DNA of 32,700 nucleotides from a virus, in IMG/VR virus record IMGVR_UViG_3300005542_000018, positions 1 through 32,700 of that record, one strand, 5' to 3'. The notes below the pieces were generated by a model that saw nothing but the letters and a program-made list of their open reading frames with translations, searched no databases and was not told where the DNA came from. The translations under genes and the position numbers were made by a program. Shown here piece after piece: positions 567 through 1,364 of the stretch. Position 1 is the stretch's first letter; the number at the start of each line of letters is the position of its first letter.

Positions 567-1364
567 GTGAACAAGTTACCCTGGTTTACGCATGACAATG
601 ACGCTCATGAAGATCTCACTCTTAGAGCAGTTATGCGGGCGCATAGAGGCCCTTGGGCTTATGGAATTTGGTGGATATTGGTAGAAATTTTGGACCGTCA
701 TGGCAATGGTGACAAGGTATCAATTGAATGGGCCGAATTTGAGCGCTTGGCGATGACTAAGAGGGGGTCTGATGGGGGGTCTGATGGGGGGTCTGATGGG
801 GGGTCTGTAAGGGGTCTGGTGGGGGGTCTGCATAGGGCAGGCCTCATAAATTGCATCGCATCTGAAGGGCCTCTGCTCGTTTACGAAATAAAAAAGTTCA
901 GAGAAAGACAAGCAAAATTGAAAAGCAAAATTCGCTCAAGACTCTTTCAAAACTACCCCAAGACTCTACAAGAAAGAGAAGAAGAAAGAGAAAGAGATAT
1001 AACAGATACTGCGCAGGGCATGCCTGCGCCAACACAAGAGTCTTCTTCAAAACCCTATGAATTGAAGACAAAAGAGCAGCGGGTAGTTTGTGCATATAAA
1101 CGATCTTTGGGGATTGCTTGGGATGATCGTGAGTGGGATAAAGCAAATTATAAGAGATGGGCTCCATCTGCGGTCAAACTGTTGAAAGCATTTGGTGGAA
1201 ATACAAACCCGACAATTGATTACGTAGGTGTTCAAGCAGCCATTTTGAAAGAAAAGAATTTGACTTATAACTTAGCAACATTAGCCAGGATGGCATGGGA
1301 TAACCCGGAGACAGGAGAACATAGAAATGGAAATAGAATTGCAAAAGACGAAGAAAAAGTCTGA
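567..1364 (+). CDS. Replication initiator-like protein (DUF4373/Lin1244-type N-terminus)
   Basis: The start is GTG 567; the product is 265 aa. The N-terminus (WFTHDNDAHEDLTLRAV, then GPWAYGIWWILVEIL) fits the winged-helix domain of phage replication proteins of the DUF4373 type: a WF-x-HD motif, then a glycine-rich turn and an aromatic helix. Residues about 68-85 are a low-complexity linker rich in Gly, Ser and Asp, encoded by tandem GGGGTCTG repeats. The middle is highly charged. The C-terminal part (about 175-250) resembles the helical tail of DnaD-like replisome organisers, though weakly. By analogy with lambda O, it would bind the repeats in its own gene and recruit host helicase. No helicase or primase motif is visible. 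The gene turns AT-rich after the repeats, unlike its neighbours. It overlaps the next gene by 38 bases. Confidence 0.65.
   Translation: MNKLPWFTHDNDAHEDLTLRAVMRAHRGPWAYGIWWILVEILDRHGNGDKVSIEWAEFERLAMTKRGSDGGSDGGSDGGSVRGLVGGLHRAGLINCIASEGPLLVYEIKKFRERQAKLKSKIRSRLFQNYPKTLQEREEERERDITDTAQGMPAPTQESSSKPYELKTKEQRVVCAYKRSLGIAWDDREWDKANYKRWAPSAVKLLKAFGGNTNPTIDYVGVQAAILKEKNLTYNLATLARMAWDNPETGEHRNGNRIAKDEEKV
764..830 (+). repeat. Six iteron-like GGGGTCTG repeats (candidate replication origin)
   Basis: GGGGTCTG begins at 764, 776, 788, 800, 811 and 823, giving spacings of 12, 12, 12, 11 and 12 bases. The first four copies sit in a near-perfect 12-bp unit (GGGGGGTCTGAT). The 11-base step shifts the reading frame: copies 1-4 are read GGG-TCT-G and copies 5-6 GGT-CTG. 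The DNA word is therefore kept while the encoded peptide changes from Gly-Ser to Gly-Leu. Spacing near one helical turn inside an initiator gene followed by AT-rich DNA resembles lambda O/ori. Origin function is inference; slippage expansion is the alternative. Confidence 0.55.
887..997. other. AT-rich and polypurine tract, candidate DNA unwinding element
   Basis: Downstream of the repeats, the coding strand becomes very A-rich (AAATAAAAAAGTTC at 887-900, several AAAATT runs to about 945). It then forms an uninterrupted 28-base purine run at 970-997. It lies within the initiator gene, about 55-170 bases from the last repeat. The arrangement iterons, AT-rich segment, purine tract parallels lambdoid origins. 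It may also simply reflect Lys/Glu-rich coding, so the call is tentative. Confidence 0.3.

Follow-up and report, generated by a model that had tools for sequence, protein, structure and literature searches.

The window analysed here is the whole record of a metagenomic virus contig of 32,700 bases. Its terminase, portal, head, tail-sheath and baseplate genes identify the source as a contractile-tailed phage or prophage. Early genes are few in this 32.7-kb record, which is possibly incomplete. One of its genes resembles replication initiators and carries two repeat arrays and a purine-rich tract inside its coding sequence (Table 1).

Table 1. Coordinates of the initiator-like gene and of the features lying within it.
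Feature	Position	Strand	Remarks
Replication initiator-like gene, distant DUF4373/Lin1244_N type	567..1364	+	265 aa, GTG start
Codons of the N-terminal winged-helix domain (residues 6-107)	582..887	+	AlphaFold model
Six GGGGTCTG copies	764..830	+	Steps 12/12/12/11/12; the window has no other G-quadruplex motif and no other tandem repeat with a score >46
GGGGTCTG copies 1-4, read GSDG, in a predicted flexible turn	764..807	+	Two 12-bp units (8 residues) of net insertion relative to the family
GGGGTCTG copies 5-6, read RGLVGGL, within the predicted recognition helix	811..830	+	Other reading frame
Candidate iterons CAAAATTCGCT CAAGACTCTTT CAAAACTACCC CAAGACTCTAC	926..969	+	Exact 11-bp phasing across reading frames
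Purine-/AT-rich tract, candidate DNA unwinding element	970..1010	+	Directly 3' of the 11-bp array; position of the family purine tract
Codons of the C-terminal region, common to the otherwise different phage gene L005	1047..1298	+	WDDREWDK motif

The initiator-like gene and its relatives

The original prediction had seen a replication-protein N-terminus in this gene, and weak profile matches together with repeat-removed searches support it. The 265-aa product matched phrog_24189 (E 7.6e-6) and, weakly, phrog_2562 (replication initiation protein, E 0.0048). PF14297 (Lin1244_N) aligned to residues 6-93 with 14.4 bits (E 0.065), below the curated cut-off of 25, and four phage relatives score above this cut-off with 41-45 bits. 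With the repeat removed from the query, tblastn matched the N-terminus to DUF4373 genes of Vibrio, Pantoea and E. coli phages, the best match being an unannotated gene of Pseudomonas phage 15b (E 2e-3). The protein has the N-terminal motif and the winged helix of the Lin1244_N/DUF4373 family, with which it shares about 20% identity and the motif residues W6, H9, D10, A13, D16, G28, Y32, W36, E40, G92 and L93. Its membership of this family is distant at best, and it appears to work like a member. Most of the DUF4373-type genes compared are annotated as hypothetical protein or DUF4373, and some as origin-specific replication initiation factor. Genes of the family neighbour replication protein P or DnaB-like helicase genes: the replication protein P gene stands after the DUF4373 gene in Pantoea phage PdC23, and a COG0305 helicase-like gene follows it in Vibrio phage 1.042.O. 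In the window, the gene that comes next (1327-1842) matched neither PHROG nor Pfam, in a record that may lack parts. Because of the profile and tblastn matches and of the replication neighbours and annotation of its relatives, the 265-aa product is taken as a putative initiator, distant from the named family.

The full window protein gave no tblastn match at E <= 0.01 against phage records, and scans of viral contigs and genome contigs with the single protein recovered no close initiator relative beyond L005, which matches in the C-terminal part only. In L005 (L005:2470-3399) the WDDREWDK region stands behind a DUF1376-like N-terminus, and this sharing of a C-terminal region despite different N-termini suggests that DNA-binding and C-terminal modules may be swapped. 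Records with related terminases gave no match to the window initiator, one of these searches having had no positive control. Records whose terminases are 47-60% identical lack an initiator of this type, so related phages seem to exchange the replication module. Foldseek of the window model against the PDB returned just weak generic winged-helix matches (best E 0.34), and the window profile found nothing significant among PDB sequences.

The 12-bp array in the winged-helix codons

The six exact copies of GGGGTCTG start on the + strand at 764, 776, 788, 800, 811 and 823, just where they had first been placed, and the word is absent elsewhere in the window. Dinucleotide shuffles contained 0.72 copies on average and at most 4 in 100 shuffles, against the 6 observed. 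TRF scored the array (763-830, period 12, 5.8 copies) at 108, and the other tandem repeats of the 32.7 kb at 46 or less. The reported frame change is real as well: copies 1-4 read GGG TCT (GSDG GSDG GSDG GS), copies 5-6 read GGT CTG (RGLVGGL), so that the same DNA word encodes different peptides, and the switch falls on the 11-base step from 800 to 811. Both portions continue in frame with their flanks. Copies 1-3 are identical over 12 bp, the 8-bp core is identical in all six copies, and every difference between copies is confined to the linkers. Among the Gly codons of the window phage, GGG is a minor one (17.5%). The statement that AT-rich and polypurine DNA follows also agrees with the sequence, with a GC content of 0.38 at 831-1010 and, in the tract at 970-1010, 85% purine and a GC content of 0.29. 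The core/linker pattern was considered as a proof of DNA-level selection and rejected; the core was defined post hoc, and the linker changes of copy 4 may be a single event.

The place of the array in the protein was examined in an AlphaFold model (42-row alignment, mean pLDDT 68, winged-helix domain blocks 60-91). In this model a helix at residues 55-67 is followed by a turn (68-77), a helix at 78-90 that is presumed to be the recognition helix, and wing strands at 96-98 and 103-107. The protein has Gly at residues 83, 86 and 87, where none of 40 aligned relatives has Gly. From the HD to the GL motif it counts 83 residues vs. 74 in nearly all relatives, and eight of these nine extra residues map to the array, corresponding to two 12-bp units. 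The frame switch falls at the junction of the flexible turn with helix 3. It had been argued from this switch that selection acts on the DNA rather than on the protein; the switch itself stands, but the argument is less decisive given its position at the turn/helix 3 junction and the 8-residue net insertion. Slippage is favoured because whole units were inserted in frame relative to the relatives and because the copies are perfect or nearly so, and the array is probably a slippage expansion, which is the preferred reading. On this reading the array would be distinct from the conserved iterons, a G-rich 12-bp repeat peculiar to this lineage, and as a site it could be auxiliary at most.

A G-quadruplex in the mRNA or in a DNA strand, tuning initiator translation or fork passage, would give the G-rich word another role. 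No other such motif occurs on either strand of the window, and RNA folding yields -56.1 kcal/mol with quadruplexes vs. -29.6 without. However, any G-run repeat gives such scores, the TCTG portion of the core is left unexplained, and the DUF4373-type family offers neither conservation nor a known precedent, which makes this role very improbable.

Phased arrays in DUF4373-type genes and in the window

For the family comparison, 46 non-redundant DUF4373-type genes, that of the window included, were anchored at the HD codon; self-similarity values are means of the 45 genes other than the window's. In each of the 46, the best four-copy 10/11-bp array has its start between 305 and 416 nt past the HD codon, and its p in synonymous shuffles is <= 0.02 in 35 of them. 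In a control set of 142 unrelated ORFs, nine have an array with p <= 0.02. The position of the family arrays is the linker behind the winged helix and before the C-terminal part, and a purine tract then follows; in many family genes the best array is the purine tract itself, and non-purine arrays occur as well. At nt 310-380 the self-similarity of the 45 genes is 0.377 at lag 11, 0.323 at lag 10 and 0.320 at lag 21, lags 21-22 being enriched, whereas lag 12 (0.236 vs. 0.377 for lag 11) is not. At nt 370-440 lags 5, 10, 15, 20 and 25 are enriched (0.473 to 0.358), and no lag series of 11/10/21 or of multiples of 5 occurs in other regions of these genes. Since 11 and 5 are not multiples of three, the family pattern is one at the DNA level. 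TRF likewise found 11-bp repeats in the relatives, for example TCATGATGGAG, downstream of the winged helix and then purine repeats of the AGAAN type. The 5-bp repeat (AGAAN/AGATN) of the purine tract behind the iterons spans half a helical turn, is not codon-phased, and is seen in divergent phages, e.g., L102, L158 and L105.

Three of these nine control ORFs, L028, L050 and L078, score above 0.7 (0.74-0.82) with an 11-bp array at nt 309-383, just behind likely winged-helix regions. These genes (L028:3315-4073, L050:2252-3103 and L078:1290-2021) and L007:1195-2049 are likely winged-helix initiator-like genes with 11-bp arrays in this interval, e.g., CGTTAGCGGAA; the array of L007 is not significant (p 0.07).

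The window gene has a corresponding array, which is missing from the original prediction. The array at 926 (period 11, score 0.64) is the best of the gene for periods 7-20 outside 764-830 and starts at nt 335 after the HD codon. It was matched by 7 of 3000 synonymous shuffles, by 1 of 3000 codon-order shuffles and, in the region defined a priori from the family, by 10 of 5000 shuffles (p about 0.002). Against an iteron reading of 926-969 count its score, weaker than that of many family arrays, and the period of the window's purine tract, which is 6/12 and not the family's 5. A 12-bp array in the winged-helix zone was found in none of the 45 other family genes, the best scoring 0.46 vs. 0.92 in the window. 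The expectation that related phages would have repeats in this gene thus holds in part: they have an 11-bp array elsewhere in the gene, and two of them, L217 and L270, an array in the winged helix, but not the 12-bp array at the position of 764-830. Phage proteins with a Lin1244/Lin1753-like N-terminus (PF14297, DUF4373), such as the "origin specific replication initiation factor" of Vibrio phage Athena1 and pdc_052 of Pantoea phage PdC23, carry the motif W.xHDxDA...D.KL....G..GYG.YW...E and share with the window the winged helix and an array with a purine tract at the same place; unlike it, they are without the GGGGTCTG array and the 8-residue insertion, both unique to the window among the genes compared.

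An origin inside the initiator gene is a classic feature of lambda. In the lambda record, nt 349-433 of gene O are annotated as iterons. Lambda ori and the window both have iterons, or candidate iterons, midway along the initiator gene and then an AT-rich tract. The lambda iterons are 18 bp long at steps of 20-24 bp, whereas the units of the window measure 11 bp. In the window, phased repeats behind the DNA-binding domain (926-969) adjoin the AT-rich/purine tract (970-1010); the GGGGTCTG array, in contrast to the lambda iterons, lies within the winged-helix codons and not behind them. The parallel drawn earlier to lambda O/ori is therefore supported in its layout, an origin within the initiator gene, but the place conserved in the family is 926-1010 and not 764-830. 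As judged from the sequence, 926-969 with 970-1010 is a better candidate than 764-830 for iterons and unwinding element.

It could also be that neither array is an origin, both being peculiarities of coding sequence, and that replication starts elsewhere, including parts missing from the record. The contig is metagenomic, 32.7 kb long, poor in early genes and possibly incomplete, and GC skew does not mark 0.9 kb; as an origin marker, GC skew is uninformative in the window because nearly all genes lie on one strand. The 11-bp phasing at the family position (p about 0.002) and the family-wide pattern speak against an origin elsewhere, which we regard as very improbable.

Readings of the two arrays

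From the sequences, their positions and periods, the family comparison and the predicted fold, we infer an origin of the lambda O type inside the initiator gene. The N-terminal winged helix of the initiator would bind the 11-bp-phased sites at 926-969 on one face of the DNA, the adjacent tract at 970-1010 would melt, and the helicase or its loader would be brought in by the C-terminal part. The GGGGTCTG array would have been enlarged in frame by slippage, with a net gain of two units or 8 residues. The main iterons are placed at 926-969 and not at 764-830 because the family arrays all start at nt 305-416 after the HD codon. The upstream array is disfavoured because the family does not use period 12, the array is unique, it brings an 8-residue net insertion, and its copies 1-3 are perfect. 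This scheme is favoured with modest confidence. Against it count the distant family membership of the protein, the fact that the initiator gene, 2.4% of the 32.7-kb window, holds its sole strong tandem repeat, the restriction of copy differences to the linkers, and the significant winged-helix arrays of L217 and L270, by which such arrays can be more than slippage.

In its N-terminus the window protein is closest to the products of L217 and L270, genes of IMG/VR viral contigs, with 49% identity over residues 6-40. Both genes have an 11-bp array of the AAGCAGAACTA type in the codons of the recognition helix and wing, matched by 0 of 2000 and 2 of 2000 synonymous shuffles, and an additional short repeat before the downstream repeat tract. 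They thus resemble the window in having a lineage-specific array in winged-helix codons and, ahead of the downstream repeat tract, another repeat; their array, however, is phased at 11 bp with a unit of its own, and the sequence that follows has little in common with the window. L274, the third member of the subgroup and a closer relative of L217 and L270, is without a winged-helix array. As two of these genes have the array and the third does not, such arrays seem to come and go as lineage-specific additions, which may be bound or not. By a by-eye count from the two proteins, L270 exceeds L274 by about 11 residues (33 bp) in the array stretch. An 11-residue tandem repeat of L270, TSAELKLIESR TSAELKQFTSR, coincides with three 11-bp units in winged-helix codons, at about nt 225-300 in L217 and L270.

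The GGGGTCTG array could instead consist of genuine iterons to which the initiator binds, forming the main cluster or an extra one distal to the AT-rich tract. In Stx phages, O is longer by 13 residues owing to two extra distal iterons; these are weakly bound and needed for plasmid transformation, and iteron number varies among lambdoid and Stx phages, adding residues to O (PMC7466680). The exact core between variable linkers, the word kept across the frame switch, the use of a minor Gly codon and the three recognition-helix Gly residues absent from 40 relatives, as if the DNA had dictated the protein, would all fit such a cluster, as would the arrays of L217 and L270. However, 12-bp steps drift off the helical phase at a lag not enriched in the family, 0 of 45 other genes have a 12-bp array in the winged-helix zone, and L274 has no array there. 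The only resemblance between the core and the 926 unit is AGAC(C/T)C, on the opposite strand, and it is estimated to be within chance. No exact two-unit GGGGTCTG array was found in other viral contigs, and the looser arrays in 8 viral contigs are mostly coding repeats or intergenic stretches, none of them in a recognisable initiator gene. An iteron cluster at 764-830 is accordingly a possible but rather unlikely reading; if it were true, the recognition helix would be encoded by its own binding sites. Put more narrowly, the array may be a functional second cluster, in which the codons of the turn and the recognition helix double as binding sites and L217 and L270 follow the same principle with a different word. 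We consider this second cluster unlikely; if it exists, the origin would be located within its own initiator gene, in the part that reads DNA.

Under the favoured scheme, with iterons at 926-969 and a slippage-enlarged upstream repeat, the window belongs to a wider pattern. Iterons in the initiator gene are known from lambda. For the 11-bp form seen throughout the DUF4373-type family, a search of open-licence papers found no description, neither of DUF4373 together with replication nor of 11-bp iterons inside such genes. A lambda-like layout, with 11-bp units and a usually pentameric purine tract, extends across dozens of divergent DUF4373-type genes and several other winged-helix genes that were found blind. 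It offers a testable prediction of the origin from sequence alone for many uncultured phages and prophages. The window itself, with a DNA repeat running through the codons of the presumed recognition helix, provides a natural test of a possible mutual constraint between DNA site and protein sequence.
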